A stretch of DNA of 64,000 bases. It comes from Tetradesmus obliquus. Taxonomy: Eukaryota; Chlorophyta; Chlorophyceae; Sphaeropleales; Scenedesmaceae. This document shows positions 11,587 through 62,079 of this stretch, piece by piece. The notes below the pieces were generated by a model that made no database searches, was not told the DNA's origin, and saw only the letters and a list, made by a program, of their open reading frames with translations. The stretch spans positions 496,001 to 560,000 of the forward strand of contig CP126206.1 of NCBI GenBank assembly GCA_030272155.1, read 5' to 3'. Every line of letters begins with the position of its first letter. The stretch's first letter is position 1. The position numbers were made by a program, and so were the translations under genes.

Positions 11587-12958
11587 TCACAGCTCATCCT
11601 CGCTCTCAGACACCTCCTCGCCGCGTGCCTTACGTGCTGCCCTCTCCTTGGCCTTTGCCTTCTTCTCCTTGCGGCTGAGCTCCTTCTTGGGGCCCTTCAC
11701 CTTGATGGTGTTGCCAAAGGCGTCAGTCATCTCCTCCTGCACCTTGAACTCAACCTTCTCACGGGTCAGCACCTGGGGCGCGCCAGTCACGGTGACCAGG
11801 CCGTTGGCCACAGACCACTTCTCAGGGCACAGCGCAGATGTGAACTCGTTGTGGTGCGAGATGATGACCACACCTGCAGAGCGCAACGGCAGCGGACATA
11901 TCAGTACATGCACAGATGTCTCCCAATAAGCGGGAGGGAAGAACGAACTATCAGATACAGCATGTCGATCAGCAGCCCCACAACTCAAACTGGTTGTTGT
12001 TGTATTGCACCCTGCACAATATGGTGACGGGACGCCATCCAGATGTGCTTTCGCAAGTGTTGCAGAATACAAAGCAGCGTTCTCCGGAACTACTGCACCA
12101 CCCAGAACAACCATGCGTCGCCATGCCCCAGCCAGCCACTCACCGCCACCAAACTCCTTGATGGCGCCAGCCAGCGCGCCAAGCGAGTCCCTGTCCAGGT
12201 AGTTGGTGGGCTCGTCCATGACCAGGATGTGTGGCTGGTTCCAGGTGCAGGCAGCAAGCACCACCTTCACCTTCTGGCCGCCGGACAGGCCGCGCATATG
12301 TGCGTGTGTGGCAAACTCGGCCTCCAGGCCCAGCACGCCCAGGTGCTTCTCCACGTTGGCCTTGGTCAGCGGGCGCAGCATCAGGCCCTGCAGGCACATC
12401 AGAAAACAACGCTCAAGATCAGTGACAGGCCCCACACCCCACGCTCCAGTCCTACTCAACGTTGGCCTTGGTCTGGATCAGCTGTCACAAGGCGGGGCAC
12501 GCAAGCTCCTGTCAAATCGCAATGTACAGTGTTAGTACCCACGCCTTCGTCTTCAGCAATAGGCTACGCCGCTGGACCAATGGCACGCACATGCCCTCCC
12601 ACATCAGACCACTGTCCTGACCAGCAGACACCACCACCACCACGCCACTCAGCTTCAAAGCCTCCCCGCGCAGCTTCCTCGCACAACATCCCACCAGTGA
12701 GCACACCCCAATGTCCCGTAGTCGTACCAACATATGCCACCCAGCTTCAAAGCCTCACCGCGCGCGCCGCCTCCTTCATGTCCAGGTCGGTGACCATCTT
12801 CTCCAGGCCCATCTCCACCAGGTCGTCGCGCGTCAGCCAGGTGGCCGCCTCGGGGCCCTTGCCCTGCCACTGCACCTCGTACTCATAGTCCTTCTTTAGC
12901 TTGCGGCGGCCCAGCAGCTTGTCCACCTTGAGCTTCTGCAGCGTACCGTCCTCAGCCT

Positions 12959-12993
<35 letters not shown>

Positions 12994-15900
12994 GTGAAGA
13001 GGGTCAGCATATGGCGTGGCGCGTGCGGCCATCCAGGGCAGAAGTAATGACTGCACAGCCATTTCGCTGCACACCACGCATGCTGCAATCGATTCAGACG
13101 AACAGCAAACCCCCAACATATCAGCATGCAGTACCCTAGACCCGTAGCAACCTGTACACTACTGCAAGCCGCTAGCCACAGCAGCAGCAGCCAAGCGCAG
13201 CGCACCTTGATCTGGTGCACCTTCTCCTTGGCTGCCTTGTCGTCAGCAGTGTCCTGGCGGGTGGCCTTCACCAGCGCCTCCCTGTCCTCACCCACAGCGT
13301 AGCGCCACTGCAGGACAGCAGCAGCAGAGATGCAGCACCAGTCAGCACATAAAACCAGAAAGCCCACAAGCGGCATGCGTTGCTGCTGGTGCAGTATGCT
13401 GATGCAACAAAACAATACACAACTATGTTGTAATGGCATGCTGTCAGCTTCAAGAGGCTGCTGCGACTGCTGCTGGCACACCTGGATGTACTCGTTGGGG
13501 GTCTTGTCCAGGTGCTGCTCGATGTGGTGGAAAGCGTGCTGTGCCACATAGGCGATGCGCAGGTTGGGGTGCTTCCACACGGTGCCCTCAGTGGCCTCAG
13601 TCTCGCCGGTCAGCACCTGCAGCACATGTCAGGCAACATGCGCCAAGTCAGCAGAAGCACGTAGCGTGTGGGGTGGAAGACAGCGCTGCAATGCATTACA
13701 AACACAGCAGGCGAGCGTTCTGTCACCATCTCCAAAAACAACCAAACAGCAGGCAGGCAAGCAACAAAAGCCTACTTCTATAGACGCAGCGCCGCACCTT
13801 GATGAGGGTGGACTTGCCAGCACCGTTGGGGCCCACACAGGCCACGCGGGAGCTGAGCGACACCTGCAGGCTGACGCCGCTGATCTGGGGTTTGGCTGAG
13901 CCGGGGTAGGTGAAGCTCATGTTGTGCACCTTGAGGATGGCCTTGTCCTTGGACTTGACGCCCTCCAGGAAGCCGGGCTCAGGCAGGCGCCACACCTGAG
14001 AGCAGCAGCAGCAGCAGCGTATGAGCACATAAGTGCGCGTGCGACGAGCGACCCAGATGAGAAAAGCTGCGGGCCGAGGCCTTGCTGCTGACTCCCAAGC
14101 TAGCACACTAGCTACGCAGACCTCAACACGAAAGCAGGTGAATGATGCAGCGCATGCGATATACTGATCAAACCACACAGCACAGCCCCACATACGCCCA
14201 GCCCTCAGCGCACCTGCTCAGTGGCGTCCAGAGCGTAGTAGCTCTGCGCCTCGGGCACGGCAGCCACAAAGGCAGACAGGTTGCCCTTGTACACCTTCAG
14301 CTTGCGGTTGGCGTAGTGGATGATGTCAGAGCACACGCGGTCCAGGAAGCCAGAGTCGTGGCTGACGATGATGGAGGTGACGGTCTTGAGGCCGATGAGG
14401 TACGCCTCCAGCCAGGCCACGTTGAGCACGTCCAGATGGTTGGTGGGCTCGTCCAGCAGCAGGATGTCGGCCTGGGAGCAACACAGCAGCAGCAGCGGCC
14501 GCAGCAGCACATACATTTCGACAATGTGCGTGTGTTCAACAGCATCAGGTGTGACAACAGGTTGAGAAGCGGCAAGACTCGGGCAGGCAGAGCACAGCAG
14601 CCGCAGGTAGCACTGCCTGCCTGCAAGCCTGCTAGCATGGCTATGTTATGGTCAGACGCGCAGCACCAGCATGATCTTGTGCTGCTGCTGCTGCTGATGG
14701 CCAGGCTGATACAGCACCAATGCTCTGCGGAACAAGAACTACCCTGAAGCACACAGGCTGCCCTGCAGCAGCACTGCAGCGCACCTTCATGAGCATGGCG
14801 CGTGCCAGCGCCAGCTTCATCTTCCAGCCGCCGGAGAGGGCGGTGATGACCATGCCCAGCATCTCCTGGGTGAAGCCCACGCTGGTCAGCTGCGTGACAA
14901 TCTCCTCGCGGCTCACGTCCAGGCCGCTGCTGTGCAGCAGCGGGTCAGCAAACACAAAGTCCACCACGTTGAGGTCAGCCATGGAGGCCTGCGGCAGCAG
15001 CAGGCAGAGCGCAGAGCAAGTCGGCAGGGCAGGACGGGGCAGAGGATTGTGAGCAGATTGAACTCGCAAGCAATGCAAGAGCACACACACCACAGGAGCG
15101 GCAGCATACACCGCGACATAAGTTGCAGAACACCTTCATGTCAAGTGACGATTTGATGCACTTGAAAGCCGCCAGCAAACAGGCATGTCTGACGCCATAA
15201 AAAGGTGCATGCACAAGGATGTCGTGCCTCACGCACCTGGATGTCGTGCTCCACATACACGGTGCGCAGCTCGTCAGCCGGGGGGAAGCCGTCCACCTGG
15301 CCATTGGCGATGGCCCTCATCAGCGTGGACTTGCCCACGCCGTTGGGGCCGCACAGGCCGTAGCGGTTGCCGCGGATGAGGCGCATGGTGGCGTTGTTCA
15401 GCAGGATCTTGGCACCATAGGCGAGCGAGAACTCGCAGTTGCACAGCTCCTCGCCCTCCTCCTGCAAGGCGGACCAGAGCACAACAAACAGAGCATGAGA
15501 CATGCAACGTCAAGCGATCATATGCGACAAGCAAGAAGTGCTGAGCAGATGTTGAGTCAATCCGCCTACCAGTACGACGAGAAGCTCAAGCCTGCAAACA
15601 TGACTGCTGGCATTGCAACACCTCAGCTGGCAGCAGGCACAACAAGCAACAGCCCACACCTACCAAGGCTAGAACAGACCAAACAGCAGCCTAAGAGCAG
15701 CCGCTGGCCGCACCACTCACCAGCACTGGTGCGTTGGCAGCTGCCTCACGCTCCGCCTCCTCCACGGCGCGTGCCAGGTAGGCGCGGGTGACCGCCTCGC
15801 TGTCCTCCTCGCCCAGGAAGCGGGCCAGGTAGGGTGTGACAGCCACGCCGTTCCACTCATCAAACTCAAAGTTCTTGGTGTCCTGCAAGCAAACAAGCAA

Positions 15901-18152
15901 GCACGCAATGTACCGGCACATAAGGCACATTACAAAGTTGCCTACACATAGAATTTGATGACAGTGAATGCACTGCTGCTGTTTTACATGCACTGCTGCT
16001 GTTTTACCAGAGATGTTGGCCGCTGTCCAAAGCTGCTGCTGAGGATCACGCCTGCTGTGTGCTTTGCAAGGACCATCACTCCAGGCTGCAGCAGCACCAC
16101 CCATATGCTCACCTGCAGGGACGCCACCAGGCCAGCGACGTACGCCATGGTGGGGCCAAACACAGCATCACCAGCCACGCTGGGGTTGCGCGCAGCGATG
16201 AGCTCCTTCAGCGCAGCGGCCACTGTGGCTGGGTCGGCCTTCTTGGGGGGCACAGACTTGCCCTCGTTGGCCACGCGCAGCAGCTCCTTGGCTGCGCGGG
16301 CAGCCACGGCGCGGCACTCGGGGTCGGCGACCTGCACCACACAGGAAGCACAGCAGCAGCAGCAGCAGCAGCAGCGGCACGCAGGTGTCAGACAACAATT
16401 CAGCACACCATACGCAATCGCATGCCCCAGGGTGGTGAGCATCAAGAATAGCCAAGCGACAAAGCAACAGTCAATGCTTGACAAACCGACACAAGCAGCC
16501 CGTGAGCTGTCGGTTGCACCAGCCAAGAGCGCAGCAGCCACCAGCAGCCCTCACCTCGTTAGCCACCTTCTCCAGGCCTGGCAGCAGGTTGGGCAGGAAG
16601 GGCACGGCGTCCAGGGGGTTGTCCACCAGCTTGGCCATGTTCTCAATGATGACGCTGGCCTTGCGCTTGATGGCGGTGGTGTTGTCGTGGCGCAGGCCAC
16701 GCACCAGCAGCGGCACCATGATGGACAGGGTCGGGGCCTCCACAGCCTGCAGGGCAGGAGAGAAGGGACAAGCGCACGGGACACAGTCAAGCAGGCGCAG
16801 TGTGCATGGTTCCGAACTATAAGGGCGAGTATGTGTAGAGTATGTGTAAAACGCCGCCACGCGCTAGCAGCGCTTGCTGTATCTTCAGACAGCAGACCAG
16901 CGCTGACAGAAAACCAGCGCCGACACAGCACCACACTACTTTCAAGTGACAACCATGCACCATACACTGCACGCCAGCATCACAGCCCTGCACGCAGTGT
17001 GCACAGACCAGCCCCAGCCCCAGCGCTCACCTGCACGAAGGTGGTGGCTGCCAGCTTGTGCACGCAGTCAGGCACCTTCACAGGGTTCTGCATGGTGTCG
17101 ATGAGCATGGGGATGAACTGCTCCAGATCCTTGTTGTTCACGCACTGCATGCAGGCAGTCATGGCGGCGGCTGCGGCGTCCTTCACGCCCTGGCGGGCGT
17201 TGCCGAGCGCCTCAGTCACCTTGGGCACAATCTCGGGCATGCACACAGCCACCTGCAGGAGGGCAGCAAGAAGCAGCAGCATGAGTGGGATGCACAGCCT
17301 GCAGGTGAGTGTTGCAGGCGCAGCTGCTCCCAGCCGACTCACAATGTGCAGCACACGTGCGAGCAGGGGTGTGGCTGACGCTGACACAAGCCGCTTAAGC
17401 ACAAGCACGTGCCAAATTCGGCACCCACCTGACTGGGGCAGCGCTCAGCCAGCGCCTGCAGCATCCTGCAGGCGCCCTCGTTGGTCTGCCACTTCTGGGC
17501 CAGCATGCCCTCAAACAGAGTGGGCAGCACCGCAGCCACGCCGTGAGGGCACATCAGGCCCTCCAGAGAAGACTGGGCGGTGGCAGCAGCAGCACGCACG
17601 GGTCCCTGCTTGTCAGCCAGCAGAGACAGCACCTGGCCCAGCAGGGGCATCAGGTAGGGCTCTGCAGACCTGCCCATGTCTGCGCACAGCGCAGCCAGGG
17701 CCAGCAGGCCACCCTCACGGGCGTTGGCGTTCTTGCCATCAGCAAGCGCAGCAGAGATGGCCTCGACGGCACCAGCAGCCACAAGCTCCTGCACGCCACC
17801 AGTCTTTGCCAGGCCAGCAAGCTCCTGGGCCACTGCAGCACGGTCACCTGCAGATAAGGCAGTGTAGGGCGGGACACAACCGTCAGGGTTGCTGGAGCAC
17901 CCCCGTTGCAGAACATTGCCCGCATCCCGCAGCAGCACAATTGCTTGCGATACCTGCGCCCTAAAATCCATCTACACAAGGAAATCCCAGCAAAGCTGAC
18001 TGCGTGGTGCACTCTTAGGGTAAATGCAGAGCAATATACTGTGAGTGCCTCCTACACAGTGCCAGCTCACCCTCGGCGCTCAGCTGCTTGGACAGCTCGG
18101 CCAGCTTAGCGCTGTTGCCGGTTGCGGGGATAGACGTTGCAACTGCAGCCAT
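11587..18152 (-). CDS. eEF3: Translation elongation factor 3 (ABC-F type, HEAT and chromodomain), 15 exons
   Basis: Ribosome-bound ATPase that in fungi helps release deacylated tRNA from the E site. Exons: 18152-18071, 17847-17429, 17252-17031, 16746-16555, 16331-16113, 15882-15721, 15461-15237, 14988-14785, 14471-14214, 13995-13798, 13616-13482, 13307-13206, 12956-12759, 12387-12144, 11873-11587. All phases join to 1048 residues, against 1044 in yeast eEF3. HEAT repeats fill about 1-380. ABC1 has GPNGVGKST (about 470), LSGGW (558) and [11 protein letters not shown] (578). ABC2 has GPNGAGKST (716), LSGGQ (906) and [10 protein letters not shown] (about 928). The chromodomain (about 807-872) lies between Walker A and signature of ABC2, the hallmark of eEF3. 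The tail is Lys/Arg-rich then acidic. The start is the first ATG before an Ala-rich N-terminus. Confidence 0.95.
12960..12992 (-). repeat. CTG run next to the exon 13 acceptor of eEF3
   Basis: About eleven CAG units on the plus strand, reading CTG in the gene, end directly at the CTGCAG acceptor. It sits where a polypyrimidine tract is expected. Confidence 0.85.
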
Positions 18153-26407: not shown

Positions 26408-26483
26408 AGCCTCTACGCAGGTGAGGCCAGCAGCTTTGAGTGCATGACAGTCAGCGCTAGATGGTGGTGCTGCCCACACACCT

Positions 26484-26533
26484 CAGCACTTGCAAGTCTG
26501 GTGTGCTGCTTGATGGCCAGCGCTTGTGACTGC
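26484..26533 (+). pseudogene. Remnant of a third SAND N-terminal half-domain
   Basis: Just after the SAND gene stop, the bases encode HLQVWC (26487-26504) in one frame and SGVLLDGQRL (26496-26525) in another. Together they resemble the domain 2 start (HLQVWC...PGMLDLQRM) with bases lost between. If a donor at 26404 (GGGGTGAAG) is spliced to the CTCAG at 26486, the protein would end in ...KSGVLLDGQRL, making this an alternative last exon. Confidence 0.4.
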
Positions 26534-39720: not shown

Positions 39721-39723
39721 GTG

Positions 39724-39960: not shown

Positions 39961-39999
39961 CTGTTAGTCAGGCACGCAGGTCAGGACCAGTACAGCACC

Positions 40000-42900
40000 A
40001 TGAGCAGCCAGAAGACGCATGAAACTCTCAAACTGCTAGTCAGGGGCGACCTAGTCGCTGTGCAGCCTGCAGCAGCAGATGGCAGACAGGCAGAAACACT
40101 GTCGGTTGACCTGTCCAGTGGTCACGTGCAGCGCAGTGAGGCAGCACTGTTGGGTGCTTCTGCCGACAATGTGCTGGCTTTGATTGGCATCTTCAACTTC
40201 AAGGCGGGCTCAGTGCTGGCGGCTGTTACGCAGGCTGAAAAGGTGGGTGTCTCTATACTGTGTGTTCAGCCTGCAGCCTACGGACGTGCTGTGTTGAATG
40301 AGACAGGGCGCCCTTTAGACATGATGGCTGGAAGTCAGCAACTTCACAGCAAGGTACTTGCGCCAGCTGTATGGCCTGACGGCACATGATCAAGTGATGT
40401 TGCAGCAGCAGCGGCAACTCTCCTCTGCCGTGCTGTGGGCTGTCTGCAGGTTGCTGTGCTGTATGGGCAGCCAGTGTTCAAGGTGACAGCCACCAAGCTC
40501 ATCAAGCCCAGCGCCACATTTGATGCAGGGGAGCGCAGGTGTGTGGGCTGTAGTCTGTTCGGTACTTTCCACGCATGTGCATTGCATCAACTGCATACAG
40601 CATGTGACAGTCGCCTACTGCCCTGTGTGCAACCTGTGTAGTGTGATGCAAAACTCACAGTGCACCTGTGCCATGCTGGGGCTATTACAGAGCGGTATCT
40701 TGTGCGGTTCTGATCTCCTCACGGCTACTGTGCCTCTGCAGGCTGTTGGCGTACCTCACTGACGCGCTCAACCCCACAGGCACAGGCCGCAATGTGTTCT
40801 TTGCATACCACCTGGACCTCACGCTGCACGCACAGGTGAGTGTGCTTGCAAGGACCCGTGTGCGCTTGCAGGACCCGCGTGCGCTTGCAGGAATCACGCG
40901 CGCTTGCAGGAAACGCGTGCGCGCTTGCAGGAGCCGTGTGGGCTTGCACAAAATGCCTGAATGCATGTGGCTGGTTCTGTGCCTCCACTGTGCACAGTTC
41001 AACGTCATGTCTGCAAGCGGGGGCCGTGGCCACTGCGCATGCGTTTGCACTGAGAGTTGGAAATGAGACTGAGGCGCTCTGCAACCTGCATTGCAGGCAC
41101 TTGCAGATGTGCTGGCCAACCCTGCAGCAGCCTCCAAGAGCATCGCTGCACGCGCAGACAGGCGCTTCTTCTGGAACAGGGTCATGGCAGCGCCAATCAT
41201 GGGTGCGTGGCAGCCTGGTAGCGCCACGCCACCGACATGTGACTTGATTGGAGACGTCTTTGTGGGAGGGTAAATAATAATGACGAACAGATGGCTCGCC
41301 TGTGCACTCCCCTTTCCGTGGTCGTCCCTTGCTAGTGCGGCATAGCCTTCTCACGGCCTTCGCATGCCTGCAAGCAACCATGACGCTCTTTCAAGGTCCA
41401 TTTTGCTCCGCTGCTGTGCTCAATCTGCTGTGTCCTCGTTGCCGGGTGCATGCTTGCCTGCTCGCCACGCAGAGGCTGGCGGTGACACGTTCGCTCTGCC
41501 GATGATTGTGGGCAGCGTCGGCCAGCTTGCAGACGTGCCAGCAGCTGCGCACGGCAAGGCTGTCTCCTTGACGCTGACGCTGATCGCCCGGAGGTCAGCA
41601 GACAGGGCTGGCACGCGCCACTGGCGGCGCGGCGCTGACACCTCAGTGAGTGAAGCGAGGCCTTGCCAGGTGCACTGCTGTCATGTAATAAGGCGTGTAT
41701 GCAGCTCTGCATGTCCTGCGTGGCCTAGCTGCACCACTTGAGGCCAAGCATTGGCAGCTGCTGCAACTGCTGCTGCTGCTTGAGCATAGATCTGAAAGCA
41801 TTGATACCTGGTGTGCCTCTGCTTGCTGCCGCGGTTTGCCAGGGTGCAGTGGCCAACTTTGTGGAGACTGAGCAGCTGGTGACGCTGGATGGCGGCAGGG
41901 TGGTGGCCAGCTACGTGCAGGTGGGTGGCTGGGTGCCAGCAGCAGCAGCAGCATAGAGGCGGCCAAGCAGTCCTGCCGGCTGTCTGCGCATTCATGTGAT
42001 CAGCCCTAGGGTGTGGTCGCTTTGCATACCCGGCTCTGGATCTAGGCATATGTAAGTGTCGGGAAAGCAACGCCTTGGTGTTGCCGTGCTGCTGTACACG
42101 GGTGCCAGGTGCGCGGCAGCATCCCGCTGCTGTGGAGCCAGATCCCCAACATCAAGTACAAGCCCACCACGCGGCTGCTGGCGGCTGGCAGCCCCACCTC
42201 GGCGGCCTTTGACACACACTTTGACGCGCTGCTGGCCAAGTACAAGGTGAGGCGCGGCGGGACACCCAGGCTGTAGTGCAGTTCAAAACTCGGATGTGAT
42301 TAAATCCTTTGATCAGAGACGCCCTGTCGTGCGATCACGATCAACATATGCACAGAGCCTGGTGATGTGCGCAGGGCGTGTCCTGCGTGGACCTGGTCAA
42401 CCAGACAGGTAGCTCGGTATGATACCTGCTTCATGTCTGGCTGGTGGCTATGTGTTCTTTTCTGTGCCCTCGCAGGGCGTGTCCTGCGTGGACCTGGTCA
42501 ACCAGACAGGCAGCGAGGGCCTGCTGGAGGCAGCGTTCGCGGGCCAGGCCAAGCGCTACGCCAGCAGCCGCAGCGCCGCGCTGACCTACACCGCCTTCGA
42601 CTTCCACAAGGAGCTGGGGGCAGCCAACTACGCGCGGTGAGCCGCAGCTGCCAGCCTCCTCCGGATGTTCTGGCCTACGTAGTGTGCGTGGGCGTGCATG
42701 TAGGCGCATGCAGTCGTATGTTGGAGTGCGTGTGCATGCTTCTGCATGCTGCAGGCTGCTCTTTGTGTGTCTCGTGGGCGCCTGCTTGCAGCTTGGTTGC
42801 TTAGCTGGATGCCCGCATAGGGTGTACATGTTGTGGCCGTTGGCCTGCACACTTGGTTGCTGCTGCCCCTGCTTGTAAGACTTCTGCCTTCTTGTTGTGT

Positions 42901-44609
42901 TTGCCTACTTCCTGCCTGCTTGCTTTGCTGCTGCCTGGTGCAACAGCCTGAGCGTGCTGTGGGGCCGCCTGCAGCCGGAGTTTGCTCGCTACGGGCAGTT
43001 CATGACCGGCACGCAGCACAACAGCAGACAGGTGCGCAGCCAGCAGCATTCCTGCATCAGCCAGAGTCAACCTCCTCATCGTGTCTGGGAGGCGTGGCCG
43101 AGTAAAGTAGTGGAGACGCAGCCCTTGGTTTTGAACATGGTTGTCAGTGCTGTGTTGCTGCGCCGTGGGCATCACAGAGTGCTTTGGGTGAACTGCATGG
43201 ACTGCCTGCCCTGCTGCTGACGCACCAGCACTGCTGACGAGATGTCTGCACCATGTGTCACCGGATCAATTGCCTGGACTGCCTGGACCGCCCCTGGCCT
43301 GGTGCCAGCTCACCTGCCCTGTGTGTCTGCACCGCGCATCCCTGCAGGAGGGCGTGTTCCGCACCAACTGCGTGGACTGCCTGGACCGCACCAACGTGGT
43401 GCAGGGGCTGCTGGCCCGCCACGCGCTGGAGGCGCTGCTGGCGCAGCTGGGCGTGCTGGGGGCCGGCGAGGAGCTGGCCGCGGTGCTGCCACGGGTGAGG
43501 AGATGCTGGTGTGGACGGGGATAGAATAACATGTGGTATTTGGGCTGCTGGGCTGCACTTAGGTGCCAGGCCGTGCATGTATACTTGCGATGACTGCTGT
43601 TCTGGATGCAAATTGTGCAGGCCGTCCTTTTCATCAAAAAGCAGGTTGGTGGACGGAGCATTGCTGTGTTACAGCTCGCAATCATTGGCATGTGCTCACG
43701 CCACTCGCCCGCAATAAAGCTCCATCGGTGCTGCTGCCGTCCTCATGTGCTGCCAGGTGGAGCAGCAGTTCAAGGTGCTGTGGGCGGACCACGGCGACGA
43801 CCTCGCGCGCCAGTACGCGGGCACAGGGGCGCTGAAAAGTGGCTTCACACGAACAGGTGGGTGGCAGGGCTGAGCAGGGCAATGCAGGGCTGCGGGACCG
43901 GCGTGCAAGCATGCTCGACTGCTGGACACAGTAAAGACTCGCCTGCCATAACACAATGAGCAACATGGCCCACCTGCCATCAACCAGCTGTAGGCGGTCT
44001 TGCCAGCTGTTCAGGAAAGGCATGCAAATGTATCCAGGTGTTGATGCGTCGAGCTCAGGCAGTGTGCGGCACTGGGATATGCAGCAGCTTCAATTGCAAG
44101 CCAGCCTCCTGCTGTGTGCGTTGCATGATTTGCCATGCAGCTCACAGCATCATTGCTGCTGCTTGCTCTGCTCCTCTTTTCATGGCGGATGGTGCGCATC
44201 CGCTGGCAGATGGTTGGCGGGCTGCTTCATGAGATGTCACTGCTCATGTTGCTTGCGCTGTTTTTTCTGCTTTTTCCGCAGGCAAGCGCACCATCGGTGG
44301 GCTGCTCGATGACGGCGTGAAGAGCATGGTGCGCTACTACCTGAACAACTTCCAGGTGCGGGAAGGTGCAGCTCCATGATATGGTCTGATCAAGTGTCTG
44401 ATTGTGATATGTAGGTGGTGAACTCGCTCCCAGGTGCAGCGCTACCAGCTAGTAGCTTTGGGTGCAAAAGAGGACTGTGCGCACCTGACAGACTGGTGTG
44501 GCCAGCAGGTGAACGAGCGTGATGTCTCTGTTCCTTCGTGCCACATCACAGCAGACAAGCCAGCTTCCACGCTCAGGGCAGGCTGTCATGCAGGTTATAC
44601 GACTTGTTC

Positions 44610-44668
<59 letters not shown>

Positions 44669-45654: not shown

Positions 45655-48492
45655 ATGGTCACCACACGTAGCATGGGGCTGCATGGCCGACAGTATTTGC
45701 AATCATTGGCAAGTAAACCCACAGCAAATGTGTTTTATCCGGGATATGTCAGGACACTGCGCCTCAGCACCAGCAGCAGCAGCAGAACACGAAGCAGCAG
45801 TCCAGAGCAGCAGCAAAGCACTGATGCTCCTGGGGGCGTGGCGCTCAACGAAGACATGCTAGCGCAGCTGAGAGCAGCGCAGGAAGAGGCTGCACGCCTC
45901 AAGAAGGAGCTTGCTCAGCTGCAGCAAAAGGCAAGTGCCAAGGGCAGGACTAATGACCACAGCATACCATGGTGTGACATGCACCTTCGCGAGTGCTGAA
46001 CAGCGCACACCCATTACACGTAATTAATGTTGTTGTTCTCTCAACAGACCAATAATTGCACAGGCTGAATGTATGTGGTTGGTGAGCAGGCTTCTAAATC
46101 ACTAGCAAAGCAGGATGTGCGTGGCAGACGTTGGTGCTATAGCAAGCACGCTGCTGCTGGTGCAGCTGCTGCCTCCATGAGAGCCTTCAGTTGCTGCCTT
46201 CATTGCCAATCTTCTGCCTTTGCCTCTGCTTTTGTGACTGCAGGGCAGCAGCGACGTGGTAGACTCCAAGCCGCAGCGCATTGACAGCACAGACAACAGG
46301 GAGCTGCCCTGGGGTGCGTGTTGCTTGCGCAGCCAACATCAGTAGCCGCAGCAATCGTCCTGCGCCGCCATCTTTAAGCTGTGCTACTCGCTGTCATGCT
46401 CCCTGCCAGAGAGCAGCACGCATGGAAGGCACTGGCCATGTGACCTCAATCAGCAGTTGTTCGTGCATGCGGCCGCAGCTGAACACGTGTGCATGGCCAC
46501 CACACAGAGCACGCTGCTGCTGGGCCTTACACACTGCACCATACTACAAAGTGTGCTCAGCTTACGCTCCCTGTGTTCTGGCTTTTGGCTGTTTGTGTGT
46601 GCAGCGCCGGGCAAGCGCACCGCCTGGCTGAGCGAGGCTGACGTGGACTTCTTCACAGGTGGGCTGGCAGCAGAAGGAAGCAGCGGCAGCAGGGCTGGCA
46701 GCAGCAAAGCTGGCAGCAGCAACCCGGCAGAGCTGCTGCAGCAACGGACTGGGTGCTGTTTCATGTAGGTCATGCGCACATAGGCGGCTTCACAGCTAGC
46801 ACATAGGCGGCTTCACAGCTAGCTCTTTTTGAACACAACATGAAGCACCTTGCGGCGGCGTGCGCCGCCGCTGGCTGATCTGCGCACATGCAAGGCTGCC
46901 CTGTGTCACCACAACGGTCTGTGCTGGTGTTGATTGTGTTGTTTGCAGGCGGCGGTGCCACCGAGGCTGCTGACGCAGCTGGCCCCAGCCCTGAGGCGCA
47001 GGCGGCCGTCAGCAAGCGGCTGCTGCTGGGCGGCGCTGCCACGCTGGCCCTGGCTGCATTCGCCATGGTGCCCACCAGCGCGCTGCGGCTCAAGCCTCAG
47101 AAGCCGCTCTACTTCTACCTGGTGCAACTGCTCAGCGCGCAGGTGAGCCTTAGCTGTGCTGTTGTTGACAGTGAGATGGCAATTTGCATGCAAGCGTTCA
47201 TCATTGCGTTGTGTTCCGGATGGCTGCAAGCGTGTGCAGCTGCAAGGCACCGCAGGTTGCTGGTCTTTATTTGAGCCACTGTAGTTTTACGTGGTGCAGC
47301 TGCTCAGCGCGCAGGTGGGTGGCCGAGTAAGCGCATGAGCTGAGCAGTCGGGTTGCAGCTGCCCTGTTAGTATGTGGTGGGCTGCTCAGCGCGCAGGTGT
47401 GCTGCTGCAAGGTCATGCTACACCTCGCGGCTGCAGAACAAGCACCGCAGTAGTCGTGGCCTGCTGTGCTGTCTGCCTTTTCAACTCCTACTGCTGCTGC
47501 TGCTGCTGCCCTCTTTGCTGTGCTGCTGCAGGCGCAGCTGCTGCAGTGCGGCTCGCTGATTGAGGACGCGCAGTGGGACAGCCTGCGGCTCATCCTGCCA
47601 CGCATCCGCGGCAGCCCAACCAACGCAGGTGCGTGATGCAGCTGTTGCTACAGGCTGAGACTCTCAGCCAGTCTGGTGTCATCTGCATGCCTGCGCACCT
47701 GCACGCAGTACCATGAACTTGCATCATGCAATCCGCTTGCGCCAGTGTCCTGCCATGTGGTGTTGCCTGACATACCTGCTGCATCCCTGGTGCCTGCCCT
47801 GCCCTGTGTTACCTGCCTGCCCTGCCTGCCCACCCCTGCCCAACCTGCTCCGGCGATGTGTGTGCTGTGCATGCTGCTGCCTGCAAAGGTCGTGCTGGTT
47901 GGCGTGGTGGCGTTGCCTGGCTGCCTGCAACTTTCTCACACCACGCGTGCTGCCCTGCCCGGCCCTGCCCCTGCCTCACATGTTGACGTGTTGCTGCTCC
48001 TGCAGAGGCCGCGCTGTTTGATGTCATAGCGCTGCTGGATGCGCCCACTGCCGCCAAGGCTGAGCCGCTGGCTGCTGAGTTTCTGGAGTACCTGGACGCC
48101 ATGGACTACAACAAGTACTTCGACGCCATGCCCACGCGCACGGTGAGCGCATTATTGTAGCCGTTATCATGATCAAACCCGTCAGAGGTGGCTGCATGTG
48201 GGGAGGACTCAGAGGCCCTGACCAAGCGCATGTACACTCGGCTGCAAGAAATGCTATGATGCCATGCATACGCACTGCAAGAGACATGTGCGTTCACATC
48301 TCTTGCTACATGTGTTACTGTGCTGCGCTGTGCATGCAGATATCTGGCGCGCAAAACGCCGAGTTTGTCAAGTTCAGCGGTGCAGCGCTCAAGGCGGCGC
48401 AGGGCAGGCTGGCGGCGTTCCTGTCGCTGGTGCCTCCAGAGGCCTTGCAAGCAGCGCGGCAGCAGGTGGACGCGCAGGAGGTGGCAGAGTAG
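45655..48492 (+). CDS. Probable plastid-targeted one-TM protein, conserved helical C-terminal domain, 7 exons
   Basis: Exons 45655-45930, 46244-46313, 46605-46658, 46949-47142, 47532-47628, 48006-48142 and 48340-48492 join to 326 residues. The N-terminus is Ser/Thr/Arg-rich without acids (transit-peptide-like), followed by a coiled coil (EEAARLKKELAQLQQ). A hydrophobic segment (about 155-178, LLLGGAATLALAAFAMVP) follows, then a helical region with KPLYFYLVQLL, LRLILPRIRGSP, EYLDAMDYNKYFDA and FVKFSGAALKAAQ. That order resembles PsbQ-like or other thylakoid lumen helical proteins of plants, but I cannot name it. Intron 1 uses a GC donor (AAG|GCAAGT), the only choice that keeps frame. Intron 4 holds two decayed copies of the exon 4 end. 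Confidence 0.75.
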
Positions 48493-49377: not shown

Positions 49378-52300
49378 ATGGTGGAGCTAGACGAAACCAC
49401 AAAGGCCAAAGTACTGAAACAGGTGTGGCGCGCTGCTCTGCGTAGCCCCGTTGAGTGTACAGCTGCAGCCGGAGTCCAAGCAGCAGTGTGTGCACTCGCA
49501 CAGCAAGTGTGCCGGTGGCTGCCGGTCCATCAGGTCTCGCAGCTGCTGGCTACACGTTTGACAATTGTATATTTGTATCACTTTGGGCGCAGATTGAGTT
49601 CTACTTCAGCGACAGCAACCTGCCCAAGGACAAGTTCCTGAGGCAGCAGGTGGAGGCCCACCCAGAAGGATGTGAGTGCCACAGCTGTGCATAGCACATG
49701 CTCATGTCTGACGAGGCAGAACCTGGATCCAGCTGGAGTTCTCCAGGACGAGCCGGTCTGTGCTGCTTGGCATGCCTGCATTGATTCTGGTGCCACTTGC
49801 GATCTAAGCTGTTGCTTCTGCTGCTTCCTGCAGATGTGGATCTGTCGCTGATCATCTCCTTTCAGCGCATGCGTGATGTGCTCAAGGTGAGGTGGGGCCA
49901 GCAGCAGACACGCGCTGCTGCTGCAAAGGTTCCGGCGATGGTCTTCAGCGCGAACAGGCAGCCGTCAGCAGGCAGCATTCCTGTCTGCCAGTGGCAGAGC
50001 AGCATGCCCTGCCAGCATGTAAGGGCCCCTAAGGACTGCAGTACAGCAGCTGAAATTGCTGACCAGGTCAATGGTTACCTAGTAGTGGGAACTCAGCTGC
50101 TCTGCTTGCAATGCGAAGATAATTACCTGGCTGCGCCACGCCGGCCATGCGTCTGCATGGCCAGTGTGCTACTCCGTGCGCAGCTAGGCAGTCTCTTTGC
50201 CACATCACTCTCAGGGCTAGTCAGGTGGCCTGTGGCCCTGCTGGAGGCCTGGACACTGTTACTGCCCTGGCACATGACACACACTGTCACATAACATACA
50301 ACATTCTGGCGCGGGTTAACACGCTGAACATCTGCAGGTGCTTGCTTCACCCTCGCACTCAACCACTGTCATCTTAGACCTGATTTCAAGTATGCCGTGC
50401 CATGCCCTGCTGTCACTGCCACCTCGTGTACATGTGCTTACAACAGCTGGGCACTGTGCGGCCTGAGGACGTGCCTGATGAGCTGGTCACGGCAGTGGCG
50501 GGCGCACTGGCGGGCTCCCAGCTGATGGAGGTGCACAGTACAGGCTTCCAGGTGCGCCAGGGCGGTCAGCCAGTCGTCTTCTTGCTGCACGTCGCAAGCG
50601 CTGCTATGAGACTCATGCAGCGTGGCTTGTGCACCATCCGTGCTGCTCCCCTGCCTGCGGTCCGCAGCTGCACCGGAGACTGCGCTGCCGTCCGCCAAGG
50701 AGGCCGTTCGCACTGTTCGCATTGAAACGTCTGGCTTGCAGTAGTATCAATCACTTCTTCTGCTGCTGCTGCTTTTGCTGCTTCCCCTGGCTGCTGTCCG
50801 CAGGTGCGCCGCAAGACCGCGCTGCCGTCCGCAAAGCAGGCTGCGCGCGCAGTCGACTCTCGCTCGCTGTACGTGCGGCCCTTCCCCATGGACGCCTCGC
50901 TGGACCAGGTGGTGGCCTGCTTCCAGAAGGCTGGCGTGGCGCTCAACGCGGTGCGGCTGCGGCGCCACGCGCGCAGCAAGGGCTTCAAGGGCAGCGTGTT
51001 CGTGGAGGCGGCCAGCGCAGAGGAGGCGCAGCGGGTGAGTGAGGCGTTTTCAGGGTCGTTTGTTGTTGGATCGCATGGTTGGGGGTGAGGCAAACTGGCA
51101 TTGAGGTCTGAATGACGTGGTGATCGAGATCATCAATGCTTGATGTGTTGGTGCGCGGCACGAGAGAAACCGCCTGCTGCAGGTGTTACAGCCAGCTAGG
51201 TGCTAGTTTACAGGTGTTGGACGCGGCGCTGCAGCTTCAGGGCGCGCCAAGCTGCTGTGTCTGCAGCGCAAGCAGGCACTGTGTCTCACGCCATGCCCTG
51301 TGCTTCTGCGCTGCCACGCAGGTGCTGGGCCTGGAGCTGCAGTTTGAGGGTGCGCCGCTGCGCCTGGAGCGCAAGCAGGCCTACCTGGCGCGCAAGATTG
51401 CGGAGCGCAAGGCCAAGAAGCTGGGCACCAGCGCTGAGGTGGGCGGGGCAGCACAGGAGCACAGCCTTCAAAGCAGAGCAGCAGCGCAGCAGCAAAGCAG
51501 CGCAGCAGCAAAGCAGCAAAGCAGCGCAGCAGCAAAGCAACATCGGACACGCATATACACCAGCTGCTGGACTGTCAGCTGCTGTGGGCATGCAGATGTT
51601 GAGGGCTTGCACCGATGCTGCTAGGCGAAGCCTGCCGTGCTCGCCCAGCAGCAACTTGCCGCGGCTGCTTACACAGAACATTCTGACGCATGCATCATGC
51701 CTGCATTGTGTCTGCTCCTTGTGCTGCTGCAGGAGCTGACGCTGGCCATGCTTGAGGAGATGGACAGTGACGTGGAGATCCCCGCCCTGACAGAGATCAA
51801 CAAGGACGTGCAGCTGCCGGCTGCAGGCACAGCAGCAGCAGCAGCAGCTCCAGGCGATGAGCAGCCGCCGGCAAAGAAGCGGAAGCAGTCTGAGGGAGCG
51901 GCTGCTGCTGATGGTGCTGATGCAGACATGGCAGATGCAGCAGAGGGCCAGGCGGCTGCAGCAGACGCAGAGCCAGAGGTAGAGCAGTACGAGACAGGTG
52001 AGGGGAATGAGGCAGCGTCAGGGCTTATTAGGTTTACCACTCCGCATTGTCACTTCAGCAGTCGTGCAGTGCATTTCCCGCCTGCCTGCCTGCCTGCCTG
52101 CCTGCGGATGGTGCTTGTTGATGCCAGCTTGCGTCAAGCAGCAAGCTGAGGTATGCCCCATGGCTGTTGCACGCGTGTCTCGTTGTCTCAAGTTGGCGGT
52201 GCACCTCATGGCTGACCCCGTCTGCTGCGTGCTGTGCCGTGTGTCTTCATCCCTGCAGGCTGCATCCTGATGCTGACGCTGACCGGGCAGCCTGCAGAGT

Positions 52301-53385: not shown

Positions 53386-54402
53386 TCGTGTGGTCTGGTT
53401 TGAGACACTGGCAGTGCGTGTGGTGTCGACATGGCGCCAGCAGTGCTGGCAGCCCTCATGGCAGTACTGCTGCGTGTTGCGTAGTACTAGTAGTGCTGTC
53501 AACAGCCTGATGATGTGCCCTGTGTGGCCGAGCATGGCTATGTCCTGTAGGAGCCCAAGCGCTGCTTGCCGCAGGGATCACCAGCTGAGATGCTCAGCAG
53601 GCATTCTCATGGAATGCTCTGAACTGCAGATGTTTGCCGAGCATTAGCACAAGCGCTTGCAATTGCTGCTGCTGTTGCCTTGGCCAATTTGTGTGTGCCA
53701 ACATTTGGACTACAGCATCCAGTGTACAGAGTTGCAGCATCCATGCAGGGTTGTGCAACGCATGGCTTGCGGGGCTTGGTCTGCCTGGCGCACCTGCAGC
53801 TGTGAGTGTCTGCCATAGGTGGTTGCGCCAAGCTGGCGGCTTCCGTACATTACGTTGCGCCTGATGTGAGGTCTTGCTACTTCGTGCTTGAGACCAGGAT
53901 GTCAGCTGCAAGAGAAGAGTTGCAGGTAATATACCTTCCATCTTCAAGACAAGTTGTTGCTTGGTGATTACCGTAATCGCGGGCAGACGGGTAGTACCCG
54001 TGAGATGTTGATCATTATGCTTTGTTGCTGTTCATAGCGCAGCCAGCCAACAGATCATCATACACACCGTTACATAATAAACTAGCTGAAGCAGCCACCT
54101 CGCTTAAGCTGCTTAACCCCATCTGCCCACAAGATCCCGACGCAAAGACATCTACACAACCCAAATGTTGAGCCTTGCACTGTGGTACCTGCACGCGGAA
54201 CAAAAGCGTGCATCGCCAGCACAAACCAACAACCAGCTACCGTAGCAGTGACCGCGCCACCTGCATTCGGCGTAACGCTGGGCGCTGCGATGTAACCGCA
54301 CACCACCATCCTTATGATGCGATCCCAACAAGCCACTCCAGCGCTCCTACTGCAGCACCTGCATTCAAGCAACGTGAGCGTATACTATCGCAGTGCTGGC
54401 TC
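53386..54402. other. Convergent spacer between La and NDUFA9-like genes
   Basis: 1.0 kb between two stop codons facing each other. On the minus strand a TGTAA (complement at about 54068-54073, GTTACA) may end the NDUFA9 transcript. No gene is seen. Confidence 0.5.
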
Positions 54403-57400
54403 CTACTGCGGCACCTGCATGCCGAAGTAGCGCTTCACGCTGGCAGGCAGGCTCTTGGCCAGCGCCTTGGAGTCGCCGAAGCTGTAGCCGCCGGTGCGCT
54501 GGTAGCGGATGGCCTCGATGGGGAAGCCCTCCGTGACCTTCATGGGCAGGATGCCCAGGTCGCCGTAGCCCAGCGAGCCTGGCGGTGAGGAGATACAGCA
54601 GCAGATGGCAGCGCGCAAGGATAGCGCAACAGGGTGGATTAAGACAGCAGGCATTGCACATGGGCATGATGTTGTTGGCGTAGCCCAGCGAGCCTGGTGA
54701 CAACAGATGAAGATGCAACAGATGGCAGTGCAGTCGGACAGCATGCAACAGGGCAGGGTGAAGACAGCGTGCATTGCACAAATTGACATGCAAGGAGCTG
54801 ACGAGCACGTCACGGGCACGCACAGCAGCTTGTGCACAAGTAGACCAAGAAACACTGGCAAAGAGATATAACAATGAATAAACTTGCACACCTAGCACAT
54901 TTCCATAATGGGCCACGAGGCGGGCCGGAGTGAAAATTCAACCGGCGCGGCGCATCGAAGGCCGCTGCGCTTATTTTCGTATGTCAGTCCTAGGCATGTG
55001 AGGGCCGAACATGCTTGGTCATGGAAACGTTTGGGATAAAATCGTCCAGTAGGAATTTTAGCCGGCCAGTGAGTTTCCAGTGGCGGTTCACAGACAACCT
55101 TGCCAACCCGCATCCTGCCCCCAGGACATTCGTACGGCGTCAAATTTGATAAACCAAAATTTTTAAAAGTGATATAACAATGAATAAAATTTCACGAAGC
55201 ACACCTAGCACATTTCCATAATGGGCCACGAGGCCGGCCGGAGTGAAAATTCAACCGGCGCGGCGCATCAAAGGCAGCTGCGCTTGTTTTCGTATGTCAG
55301 TCCTAGGCATGTGAGGGCCTAGCATGCTTGGTCATGGAACGTCCGGGATAATATCGTCCAGTAGGAATTTTAGCCGGCCAGTGTACAAGAGACCTGTGGG
55401 GTGAGTGCGGAACAGGTTGCCTCACTCTCTCAATGGATCTTTTTGTGGAGCAAGTGCACAGTTATGTAGGTCAGCCCTTGTAACTTTCTTGCTTCAAAAA
55501 AAAAAAAACAGAACACGTTCACAGCCTGCACCTCACCCTCTGGCACCACCTTGTCCCAGCTGATCCCTGCCTTTGCTCATCCCTGCCTTTGCTCATCCCT
55601 TCCCCCATCCCTGTCCCTGCTGTTCCATGGCCCCGTCCCTGCCCTTGCTGCACCTTGTCCCACCGCTGCCTTTCATTCCGTCCCAAGCGCCTGCCCCTGC
55701 CGCTCACCCTCAGGCACCACCTTGTCCCGGCTGATCTCGTCAATGTAGTCGCCGCTGTACATGTAGTTGCGCCCAGGCATGGGCGGCAGCTGCAGCAGCA
55801 GCAGCAGCACCGGCCAGACAGTGAGGCATGAGGCGACGTGCTTGTTGCTGCCCCTGATGTGCACAGCATGTGTCAGCTTCGCTGGCGCAGAGTTGATGGC
55901 GAAAGCAGACCAGCGAACACGGGGCAAACTTCACAGGTGGCAGCCATGCTGATGCCGGCACATGCCAGCCACACTGCTCCTACGACCGCCAGCACATATG
56001 CGCACCACCACAAGGAACCAAGTGCACTGTCGCTGCAGCGCATGACGCCAATGGTATGCACAGTGACTGGCTCCAGCTGGCGCTGCTCACCTTCCTGCGC
56101 AGCATGTCTCCTGGCGCGTAGGCAGCCTTGGCCAGCGCCGCGGGCATGTACATGGTGGTGTCCTCAAGGATGTGCAGGCACTCCTGGATCAGGCTCACGT
56201 AGTCGCGCATGCTGCGAGGCGCACGGACATAGTTCAGCACAGTCACGCGTCACTTGCTCATCCTGAAAGACCAAAGCACGTGTCATATGCACTGTCACAC
56301 ACTGTTGTGCAATGCTGCCAGGGGAAGCAGGCACTCTTGGATGAGGGCCCGCAGTTGCGCGTGACGCATTCAAGACAGCACCGTGTATCACCATGATGTG
56401 GCGCGCAGCCCTCAAGAACAGAGCCTACGAAGCCGCACAAGCTGCACGGGTCATGACACTACGCAGAGCAGCATGATGGCCATTCGCCAACAAACATATG
56501 AGCTGATTGAGCAGTCAACCTGAAGCATGCTCCACACGCACGCAACAGCTGCAGGCGCTCACACCATTGTCTCCAGTCCTCCAAAGCCCCAAACTCCGCT
56601 CCTCTACACCACAAACTGCTACATACTCACGTGATGGTCTCCGGCCCTCCCAGGCAGTAGTCCTTGCCCTTGGCCTCATGGCTCTCCAGGCTGGCGGCAG
56701 CGGCGCGCGCCACGTCCGTGACGTGGTGCGGCTGGAAGCGCTGCACGCCGTCGTCCACCATCCACACAGACGCGTTGAACTTGACCTGCCATCGAGGAAG
56801 AGCAGAAGCACAGCAGCACATGCAATCAGGGCATCAAACCAGCAGGCATGCAGCAGGCATACAGCAGGCGTGAGCATGATCATCTGACCACGCACCAGAC
56901 CTGGTCATGGCCAGGATGCATCAATATCACATGCTAGGCATTCAGCAGCATCTGCCACCATACGAGTCTGCCATGCTGTGCCTCGCACCTGGAAGAGCAG
57001 GTTGTTCAGCAGGTCATCCTCGTCTCCGATGATGGGTGCAGGCCTGTGCAGCAGCAGCAGCAGCAGCGCATGGTTGATGGCAAAAAGCAACACAAGGCCA
57101 ACTACAGTACACTGCCCGGCAGCACAGCCATCCACTACCAAACAGCAGCGATGCATTCACATCTCTTGTAATGGCTGCACTAGTGCTTGCATGCTGTGCT
57201 CAGTTGCAGCATACAAACAGAGTTCATCACGGCCCTGAGCCAGCTGATGAGATATGCTGTGCACGCTAACAGCGTGCAGCCGCTACAGTGCATTCAAGCT
57301 GCAGCAGCAGCAGCGCTCACTTGAAGATGGTGGCGTCCGGGAAGGTCTCGCGCACCGCTGCGTCCCCCGCAGCCTTGCTGCGCATGCGGGCGCTGGCGTG

Positions 57401-59800
57401 GTCAGCAGCAGCACCCACGTCGCTGAAGTGCAGCAGGCGCTCCACCTGCAGCAGGAGGGGCACAGTTGCAGCAGCGGCGGCAGCCAAGTGAACACACAGC
57501 GAGTCCTGCCGTGCTGCACCTGCACCCACGTGGTAAGGGTACCAGCACTGCAGCTGCAGCTGTGGGCGGCTTCAGTAGAAAGATGTGCTAGGCGGAAACA
57601 ACCAAATCAAAAGAGATAGCGTGAACATCAGCAGAATGCGCCCCGAGATGCACACTCGCACATGACGTGAAGCAGGGATGTGATCGAAGTTCCACGCACA
57701 GGTGGCACCACATTGACGCAGCCAACCCAACACGCTGAGTGCTGCTGGATCTGGCTGCTCTGTCGTCTGGTGCCAGTCTAAACAGCGGCAAGCACACACT
57801 TGGGGTGTGCAGGCACTGCTGCAGCAGCATGTGCATGAGCAGCACTCTGCTCCAATTCCTGCCTAGTCCCCTGCCATTGCGGCTAGGCATGCGAGCTAGA
57901 CCGCATGCAAGATGTCGCTGGCCCATCTCTTGGGTTAAAAAGCATGCAATAAAACCAGAGATCCATGCATGAGCCACCATCACGCCGCGACATAGACACG
58001 GATACAAAGGCGGACCTTGATGTGCCACTGAAGCCATTGCCATCCATCTAACACCGACCCAGACAACGGCACACACAGGCGCATGCACAGGCACACAGCC
58101 GCACCTTGGGCGTGTCCTTGGCCATGGCTGCCAGGCGTGCCGGCCAGGCCGCGTGCACGTCGTCGAAGCTGAAGTTGCGCGTCTCCAGCGTTGACCCGAC
58201 GAGGTTGACCACGATGTTGCTGCGGCTGATGGCCTGGCGCGTCATGTCGTCGTCGTTCAGGTGCCAGCCCTTGAGCAGCACGATCTGCGGCGGCACGCAG
58301 CAGCAGCAGCAGCAGCAGCGGCAGCAAAAAGGCTGACACGAGGGCCAGCAGGACCTTGCAGCCCATAACCAAACATGAGTGCAGCACCCAGCTTGGGCTG
58401 CCCTCATTGTGGTCTTTGTCCCTGCTGGAGTGCTGGCAAGAGCCATGTGCGCTGTTGTCGCTGCTGTGCCCACATCAGTGTTGCCTGGATTTCACACATT
58501 GTACGTGGCTGCAGCAAGCATCCTGCTCAGTGCTGCCTGCGCTGTTGCACGTGCAGCTTCCAGAAGCTCATGCTGCTGCTTCCCAGTGCAGGCACCACTA
58601 CCACTTCACCCATTTGATGCAGTGCTGCTGTGCTGCTGCCTGCTGCCTGCATGCTGCTTTTGATCGCTGCGCAGCACTCATCGCAAGGCCGTGCACCTAC
58701 GCCTAGTTCTCCGCCCGCTTCAACCTGAAGGGCGCTTGCTACATAGCCACATCTGCACTGGCTGCTGTGCTGCGCAGCACGCACTGCTGCACACTCCGCA
58801 GCAAGTCCTACTGCCGTTGCTCTCGCACCTGGCCCAGGTCACCCTTCTTCTGCAGCAACAAGGCAACTACCCTACAGCGCCACAGCTGCACCGGCTGCTG
58901 TGCTGCGCAGCAACCCTGGCTGCTATTTTGTGCACCTGGCCCAAGTGCCCCATCTGCTTCTGCGTCATGGCTGCTCAGCCAATGGGACGCTGGCAGTCCC
59001 AGAACCACGACCGCAATCCTCGTGCCTGCCCCTGGCATCCCATTGATTGGAACACCAGGCAAGTGCGTCACAAGCCCACAGCTGCACTGACTGATTTGCT
59101 GCGCAGCAGATCCCACTGCTGCTGCTTTCGCACCTGGCCCAGGTCTCCCATCTGCTTCAGCGTCATGGCCTTCTCCTCCAGGCTGCGGTACGGCACCACC
59201 ACCTGCGTGCCGCGCCTGGCCAGCTCATTCACCACGTACTTGCCCACAAAGCCCGTGGCGCCAAACACGGTGGCCACGCCGCCACTGACGGAGGAGCGGT
59301 TGCCCGGGCCGCCCACCACGCCCGGGCGCACATTGTTGAGGGCCAGGTGGGAATACTGGCGCAGGCCTGACGCCACGGAGCCCGCCACTGCTGCTGCCGC
59401 ATGGCCTGCGGGTAAGGTTTAGGAAGATTGAAGGTGTGAGATGCGACTGCAAATGCTGCCACAGGAATGGCTGTACAATAATAACAAGAAGTGGAGCGTA
59501 CCGTGTACGCCGTGCACGGTCTGAGCTGGCTGGACATGCGTGCAACTGCAGGTGCATCACAGCACGCAAATGCCGCATGCATTGGCTGCAACAGCTGCAC
59601 ACAAAATCTGCTGGAACACTACATGCAAGCTACCAGCAACATAATCACGGACAAGCTGCTTCACATTGAGGGCACAGTGGAACTGCTGCTGCTGCTGTTG
59701 CTGCTGCTTGTTGTGTTGCTGCCTTGACTGATGCCTGGACGTGCTCACTTGCGGTTAGCTGCTGCAGAAACGGAGCTGCTAAGCTAGCAAATAGAGCCAT
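54403..59800 (-). CDS. NDUFA9: Complex I 39-kDa subunit (NDUFA9-like), 9 exons
   Basis: Accessory subunit of mitochondrial NADH:ubiquinone oxidoreductase, related to short-chain dehydrogenases and binding NADPH in known structures. Exons: 59800-59749, 59405-59134, 58284-58105, 57445-57321, 57043-56989, 56785-56631, 56211-56091, 55789-55708, 54578-54403. All phases join to 405 residues. The N-terminus [18 protein letters not shown] is a plausible presequence. The Rossmann motif is GATGFVGKY (66-74), followed by [14 protein letters not shown]-type [18 protein letters not shown], the LLHFSDVGA strand and [18 protein letters not shown] segment. The C-terminus ends RYFGMQVPQ. Introns 2, 6 and 8 contain local copies of exon edges, and intron 8 also carries a 313-bp tandem insertion. 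Confidence 0.92.
54865..55385. repeat. Tandem pair of a foreign-looking element in NDUFA9 intron 8
   Basis: Two copies, about 54865-55075 and 55171-55383, offset by 313 bases (CACCTAGCACAT at 54889 and 55202). Copies differ by scattered substitutions and by the sequence after GCCGGCCAGTG. Base composition (few CAG/CTG, runs of A/T) differs from the surrounding intron. The unit contains short inverted pieces such as CCGGCCGG. An 83-codon minus-strand frame in the first copy is not kept in the second. It is probably a duplicated mobile or satellite unit of unknown class. Confidence 0.8.
58762..59180 (-). repeat. Degenerate triplication of the exon 2 donor region of NDUFA9
   Basis: The exon 2 end (59134-59180) with its donor is echoed at about 58826-58860 and 58931-58975; CACCTGGCCCA(A/G)GT recurs in each. 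Upstream in each unit GCTGCGCAGCA also recurs (about 58767, 58900, 59098), so the repeating block is about 130-200 bases. Confidence 0.75.

Positions 59801-62046: not shown

Positions 62047-62079
<33 letters not shown>

Follow-up and report, generated by a model that had tools for sequence, protein, structure and literature searches.

Exon-edge copies in the introns of five genes

The window analysed here, a 64,000 nucleotide stretch of the Tetradesmus obliquus genome (GenBank assembly GCA_030272155.1, contig CP126206.1, positions 496,001 to 560,000), holds an eEF3, a Sac1, a plastid-type, a La and an NDUFA9 gene whose introns contain partial, direct copies of the adjoining exon edges. The EF3, Sac1 and La domains were found by Pfam, and the NDUFA9 label is taken from homologues; in aligned columns the predicted NDUFA9 model and a T. 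obliquus protein are 98% identical, and both the intronic copies and 28 residues near the N-terminus of the model are absent from that protein. A preliminary description of the window had reported at least eleven such intronic places, and this was borne out when each intron was dinucleotide-shuffled 500 times: all 11 of the source and intron pairs tested scored above every one of their 500 shuffles (scores of 34-100 against shuffled maxima of 24-39), with inverted controls at 16-26 (Table 1). In a wider sample of the genome a direct copy of a flanking exon edge was present in 70 of 308 predicted introns. About a fifth of the sampled introns thus carry a decaying local copy of an exon edge, which suggests that short duplications across junctions are a frequent route of intron lengthening.

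Table 1. Intronic copies in the window, with their sources, identities, alignment scores and the highest score reached by shuffled introns (max).
Feature	Position	Strand	Source	Identity and score
eEF3 intronic copy	12428..12473	-	12319-12367, exon 12144-12387, near acceptor edge	40/45; 43, max 27
eEF3 copy of donor-side intron edge	12644..12671	-	12736-12763	26/28; 46, max 26
Sac1 acceptor-edge copy	42370..42413	+	42471-42514, exon start 42476	43/44; 83, max 24
Sac1 exon-region copy	43261..43294	+	43359-43392	29/34; 43, max 27
Plastid-type gene, first donor-edge copy	47274..47317	+	47102-47145	38/44; 58, max 31
Plastid-type gene, second donor-edge copy	47371..47399	+	47102-47145	aligns to first copy at 47288-47317, score 43; outside shuffle test
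La acceptor-edge copy	50661..50704	+	50797-50841, exon start 50804	38/44; 53, max 30
La acceptor-edge copy	51211..51277	+	51319-51380, exon start 51322	52/62; 58, max 35
NDUFA9 tandem duplicate over acceptor junction	54659..54780	-	54541-54660, exon 54403-54578	73% over 120 bp, offset 118
NDUFA9 donor-edge copy	55525..55565	-	55696-55736, exon 55708-55789	37/41; 62, max 27; flank p = 0.83
NDUFA9 copy of first exon bases	56327..56363	-	56174-56211, exon 56091-56211	30/37; 34, max 26; weakest claim
NDUFA9 junction-spanning duplicate of donor edge	58858..58971	-	59054-59169, exon 59134-59405	94/111; 100, max 39; flank p = 0.005
NDUFA9, further copy in array of 58858-58971	58739..58790	-		58739-58779 90% to 58872-58912; 58747-58790 83% to 59076-59122; outside shuffle test

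According to the same description the copies carry the splice site along with the exon sequence, which holds for most pairs in the window and fails for the first eEF3 copy, whose source ends about 20 bp inside the exon with the splice site outside it, for the second Sac1 copy, whose source begins 11 bp within the exon, and for the NDUFA9 source 56174-56211, which ends at the exon edge. The eEF3 pair 12644-12671/12736-12763 is mostly intronic, with about five exon bases according to the predicted gene model, and the donor GT has become GG in the copy. Two NDUFA9 pairs, 54541-54660/54659-54780 and 59054-59169/58858-58971, reach far into the intron, the core of the former (54659-54697 of 54541-54582) scoring 44 against a shuffled maximum of 30. 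For the Sac1 copy at 42370-42413 no homology of the flanking intron was found (flank p = 0.95), and a genome search gave no further match. Two other repeats lie in or beside these genes: a direct repeat at 54860-55383 in an NDUFA9 intron (offset 306 bp, 91% over 212 bp), which is unrelated to the exon edges of that intron, and a 19 bp tandem repeat of 5.6 copies at 40840-40948, beside the Sac1 exon 40742-40835.

Frequency, spacing and position of the copies

The sample comprised the window, C1:1.0-1.2 Mb and C6:1.50-1.55 Mb, i.e., 314 kb on three contigs or 0.3% of the 104.7 Mb, 17-contig genome; the GC content of 57% is the value tabulated for T. obliquus (PMC5966456). Gene models were predicted by a self-trained gene finder and gave 37 genes with 321 introns, the splice consensus learned being AG/GTGAG at the donor and CTGCAG/G at the acceptor. 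Rates were determined on the 308 introns of 60-1500 bp, which were compared with their flanking exon edges at a score of at least 34, and a stricter set (score of at least 44, introns up to 3000 bp, exon part of at least 12 bp) held 75 copies in 65 introns. Gene finders can mistake such copies for exons: the window copies at 58829-58849 and 47300-47314 were predicted as mini-exons, and two copies in a Clp-protease gene were apparently predicted as exons as well, so that some copies are hidden from the count. The opposite error is also possible, since false copies could result if the finder overlooked a true exon in a gene whose exons are repeated; exon repeats were flagged by DNA comparison for three of the 75 copies.

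The 70 introns with a copy compare with a mean of 0.40 and a maximum of 2 in 40 shuffles of the exon-intron pairs, and with 0/308 for inverted queries. Upstream and downstream exon edges contributed about equally (40 and 42), and where both exons were at least 60 bp long a copy was present in 57/240 introns. Extra masking of CAG/CTG repeats, the test on which the preliminary description had staked its claim, left the hit rate far above that of shuffled pairs (68/308 against 0.20 in 20 shuffles). The copies are local: no match was found in introns of the same gene at least two away (0/295), and the 3' edge of an exon matched the intron upstream of that same exon once in 143 comparisons. The gene-bootstrap interval of the rate was 0.16-0.30, with at least one copy in 21 of 36 genes. 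A general tendency within one genome, as had been proposed, is seen in the sampled 0.3%, unevenly between regions.

Among the 75 stricter copies the smallest offset from the source is 96 bp and 51 lie within 80-160 bp, these 51 having an exon part of 24-97 bp and an intronic part of at least 43 bp; the lower limit may reflect the mechanism or selection for a workable intron end. Self-comparison (score of at least 40, offsets 50-800) gave 251 direct against 11 inverted repeats, with a peak of the direct ones at 100-150 bp, and in a second scan this peak was present in exon-intron pairs and absent from predicted intergenic DNA. At offsets of 90-170 there were 52 junction copies and four independent intron-only repeats (counts that come from different searches, Smith-Waterman and blastn), against an expectation of 2.5 intron-only events per junction event if placement were uniform. 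The four belong to 24 intron-intron pairs, of which seven are independent of their exon edges, and two of the four (window 58739/58872 and 12644/12736) are part of claimed arrays or of a donor edge. By blastn alone the same range of offsets held 53 exon-intron, 11 intron-intron and 6 intergenic pairs, and 7/11 of the intron-intron pairs resemble their own exon edges. This scarcity of intron-only duplications fits poorly with uniform neutral tandem duplication, under which exon-edge copies merely stay recognisable because one parent is conserved. Such a process would account for the tandem arrays that exist, and an exon-anchored pair should indeed diverge more slowly than an intron-intron pair, but at identities of at least 95%, where decay should matter little, there were 11 junction copies and no intron-only repeat, and we regard it as improbable.

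Set against a minisatellite array with its head-to-tail units, some introns hold several such units and many a single copy, and arrays of 98-100% identity occur; in the first intron of the Clp-protease gene (C1:1,019,250) there are five 118 bp units counting the exon. A paralogue as the source of these copies was rejected, as a DNA search with part of the gene matched its own locus only; a protein search outside that locus gave only distant relatives (31-44% identity). Two further duplications were noted on this contig, namely a copy of the Clp-protease coding end past the predicted stop codon (C1:1,022,690-1,022,803, 95% identical in protein) and, in predicted coding sequence at C1:1,068,001-1,068,349, a 98% identical tandem repeat with an offset of 108 bp, a multiple of three.

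Copy-bearing introns are longer, in line with the lengthening that had been supposed: the median is 482 bp in the 63 introns with a stricter copy against 253 bp in the 236 without, nine of the 308 being in neither group. When the offsets are subtracted the median becomes 302 bp and the difference is no longer clear (p = 0.15). A copy was present in 54/127 introns of at least 300 bp against 16/181 shorter ones; as to chance matches in the greater room of long introns, shuffled pairs on the same introns gave almost none. The offsets of the detected copies add up to 11.8 kb, against 113.8 kb of total intron in the sample. The mean intron of T. obliquus, 462 bp, is the longest among the five algae tabulated in PMC5966456, and junction duplications may bear on this length.

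Divergence and coding state of the copies

The copies are between 79 and 100% identical to the exon edge, a spread in keeping with the varied divergence noted in the first reading of the window, and the process could thus be measured directly by comparison of strains. Codon positions 1, 2 and 3 differ at 0.066, 0.061 and 0.166, a pattern close to that of a free copy against a constrained exon. Differences at third positions had no significant direction (exon AT/copy GC 71, reverse 85, p = 0.30), and a gain of exonic splicing enhancers (GGAGGA against GGCGGC in the Clp gene) was rejected, there being no clear purine or AT direction (83 against 75; 120 against 151, p = 0.07). The splice dinucleotide is retained in 57/64 copies where it could be mapped. 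Splice strength was examined in copies with a masked alignment that ends no more than 20 bp from the junction. At bases -15 to -5 the copied acceptors (n = 20) resembled an acceptor more closely than random CAG sites did (p = 6e-5) and were weaker than real acceptors (p = 0.01), while copied donors (n = 22) equalled real donors.

The retained dinucleotides, the presence of an in-frame stop in only 2/75 copies, and pairs with synonymous changes alone (9:0 at C1 J68945, 6:0 at J193201) would all suit alternative exons that are real and constrained by coding. However, 15/75 copies carry a frameshifting gap within their exon part (a further four have a gap that is a multiple of three), AG/GT at the exon-side end shows no excess (19/72 against 20.6 expected), and the T. 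obliquus NDUFA9 protein is without the copies. As a class the copies do not combine an open frame with splice sites at both ends, and this explanation is very improbable for them, although single copies may be exons. A reading of the copies as mini-exons was rejected on the same lack of AG/GT excess.

Origin of the copies

The explanation that we favour, with a probability of roughly 0.56, is that of recurrent short duplications across exon-intron junctions, in which the outer copy stays in use and the inner one becomes intron and decays. Direct duplications with an offset of 96 bp upward, mostly 100-150 bp, would arise repeatedly at these junctions, each taking in some 25-100 bp from the exon edge and, for the main size class, no less than about 43 bp from the intron. 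Splicing would continue at the site beside the intact exon, so that the second copy of the exon edge, often with its splice site, would be taken into the intron, which would gain about one unit; freed from coding, the absorbed copy would decay, and in some introns the unit would grow into an array of two to five copies. Wholly exonic duplications would mostly be lost to selection, so that the junction-spanning ones are those seen. At the DNA level such duplications might come, for instance, from staggered breaks that are filled in, or from repair synthesis at one end and subsequent end joining. We infer the order of these events, the use of the outer site, and a duplication of DNA that starts in or near exons.

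The intronic flanks of copy and source were compared unmasked, since in masked alignments the pile-up of copies at the splice site is partly an artefact of masked CTG-rich acceptor tracts. Of the 75 copies 67 were testable, the eight left out being three exon repeats and, for the rest, short spacers or unmapped junctions. Flanks were homologous in 18/67 at p <= 0.01 and in 29/67 at p <= 0.05. The recurrent tandem duplication over splice junctions that was originally proposed is thus clear in 18 copies and finds no such footing in 34/67, for which no flank homology was detectable (p > 0.1; 16 donor-side and 18 acceptor-side).

This last class is the first of several results that weigh against the favoured explanation. 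Within it the last 30 exon bases show an identity of 0.86-0.94 and intron bases 1-5 one of 0.74-0.91, after which identity falls to 0.35 at base 6, with 0.32-0.44 over bases 6-12 and 0.28-0.29 beyond 12. Flank homology is missing even in 6/12 testable copies of at least 95% identity, a result not expected from the simple decay of a tandem duplication; these near-identical copies with an unrelated intronic flank are the main result that junction duplication leaves over. The youngest copies (at least 95% identity, exon repeat removed, n = 13) show 16 synonymous against 3 nonsynonymous changes, more synonymous ones than neutral decay predicts, and in this small sample the bias hints at allelic templates or at some coding copies. 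Since a uniform process would give more intron-only duplications than are seen, a bias towards junctions or exons, itself without known cause, must be added. Finally, locality is not absolute, as an exon edge matched the next intron but one in 5/264 cases, and regional rates are uneven (window 8/60, C1 57/179, C6 5/69), which leaves the overall figure dominated by one 200 kb stretch of C1.

Conversion of the copy by the exon after the flanks had diverged, or copying that ends at the splice site, would each give the pattern without homologous flanks. Copying directed to splice sites by an exon-length R-loop, splicing-coupled breaks or RNA-templated repair would explain the sharp drop of identity in 34/67 copies, the junction bias and the lack of common sequence among the 52 spacers compared. 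We nevertheless consider it distinctly unlikely, because 18/67 copies clearly include intron flank, because no convincing copy of a spliced exon-exon joint was found in 308 introns, and because divergence is on average greater in the copies that lack flank homology (0.066 against 0.047 at codon positions 1 and 2), so that part of the identity step may be age. Six formal matches to exon-exon joints, as an RNA origin would leave, were rejected, since five look like chance resemblance and the sixth involves 47300-47314, a false mini-exon. It is likewise unlikely that breaks or copying are guided to exon edges and that the copy, reaching up to the splice site, is left about 100-150 bp away in the adjoining intron; guidance might then come from exon-length RNA-DNA hybrids or from splicing itself, and such a process, if true, would lengthen introns and supply decoy splice sites throughout the genome, and the exon would later refresh the copies.

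The 16:3 bias, a boundary at the splice consensus and the bias towards exons would also follow if broken exons were repaired from a diverged allele, matching in exons and not in introns, and the end were joined without homology. At identities of at least 93%, however, 13 synonymous and 2 other changes were counted in the nine copies with a homologous flank (454 exon bp), against 13 and 4 in the ten that lack one (440 bp), so that exon divergence is no higher in the latter and the proposal appears quite improbable. Under the favoured junction duplication, the near-identical copies with unrelated flanks are tentatively put down to conversion of old copies by the exon or to copying from another allele.

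The layout of exon edge, spacer and exon edge, with spacers mostly of about 45-110 bp, recalls an introner, or another mobile element, with the exon edge as its long target-site duplication. The 52 spacers are unrelated (best pairwise score 31), and no shared element was found among them or in three genome searches, in which two spacers, and the Sac1 copy together with its own, were unmatched elsewhere in the genome, the search skipping simple repeats and very common words; such an element is extremely improbable. Introners resemble the present case as a lineage-specific change of intron content and, in the available text of PMC9860276, differ in being elements copied to many genes, whereas the algal spacers look mutually unrelated; similar intron bodies at many loci were not seen here.

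That introns can be gained by tandem duplication and intronisation is well established (PMC3443670, PMC2891723, PMC4974935), and the comparisons that follow are limited to the available text of these and the other reports cited. In the potato RdRp gene a tandem duplication across an intron-exon boundary led to the gain of a new intron, with support from RNA-seq (PMC4974935); there too a direct duplicate covers a boundary with polypyrimidine tract, acceptor and exon start, but it concerns one locus and a new intron, whereas in the alga many introns are extended and no new intron position is seen. A duplicate that covers exon edge and adjoining intron in the manner of potato is what the 18/67 copies with homologous flanks show, and it was not detected in the 34/67. 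Gain of the AGGT type, where duplication of an exonic AGGT segment creates a new intron (PMC4974935, PMC3443670), shares with our copies a short direct duplication with splice signals that leaves exon-derived sequence in an intron; that model, however, calls for a purely exonic segment and a new intron equal to the unit, whereas in the alga the duplicated sequence lies at a junction that was already there and adds to the length of its intron, most introns being far longer than the offset. In Drosophila, novel intron positions arose by tandem duplication or sliding, with one copy of a duplicated exonic stretch intronised, in seven introns across 12 genomes (PMC2891723), as against 70/308 introns in 314 kb of the alga. 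Breaks with 3' protrusions can give rise to small tandem duplications through fill-in by CST and Pol alpha-primase, a possible DNA-level source of short direct duplications, but that report states no link to exon junctions or to a unit of 100-150 bp (PMC8355091).

No report of a genome-wide tendency of this kind was recognised in the literature searched, which mostly excluded subscription papers. Within the reach of that search, the frequency within one genome, the offset of 100-150 bp, the bias towards junctions and the lengthening of existing introns seem to be new. Intron growth and the origin of decoy splice sites have mostly been inferred from single cases, whereas here about one fifth of the sampled introns seem to be concerned.

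Several other repeats and duplications were encountered along the way. A direct repeat with an offset of 518 bp (96% over 785 bp) lies at 8382-9677 of the window, in a stretch without predicted gene, and several TGC/GCT and GATGCT arrays cluster at 62039-63598. C6:1,516,500-1,521,650 is a satellite-like array with units of about 800 bp that are about 99% identical over most of their length. At C13:4,602,618-4,609,449 there are mitochondrial-carrier matches of equal score on opposite strands, perhaps a recent inverted gene pair. At 166-6195 of the window a predicted protein of 450 aa, which has a cysteine-containing motif towards its end, lies beside a 1492 aa open frame, and the region looks like a retrotransposon.

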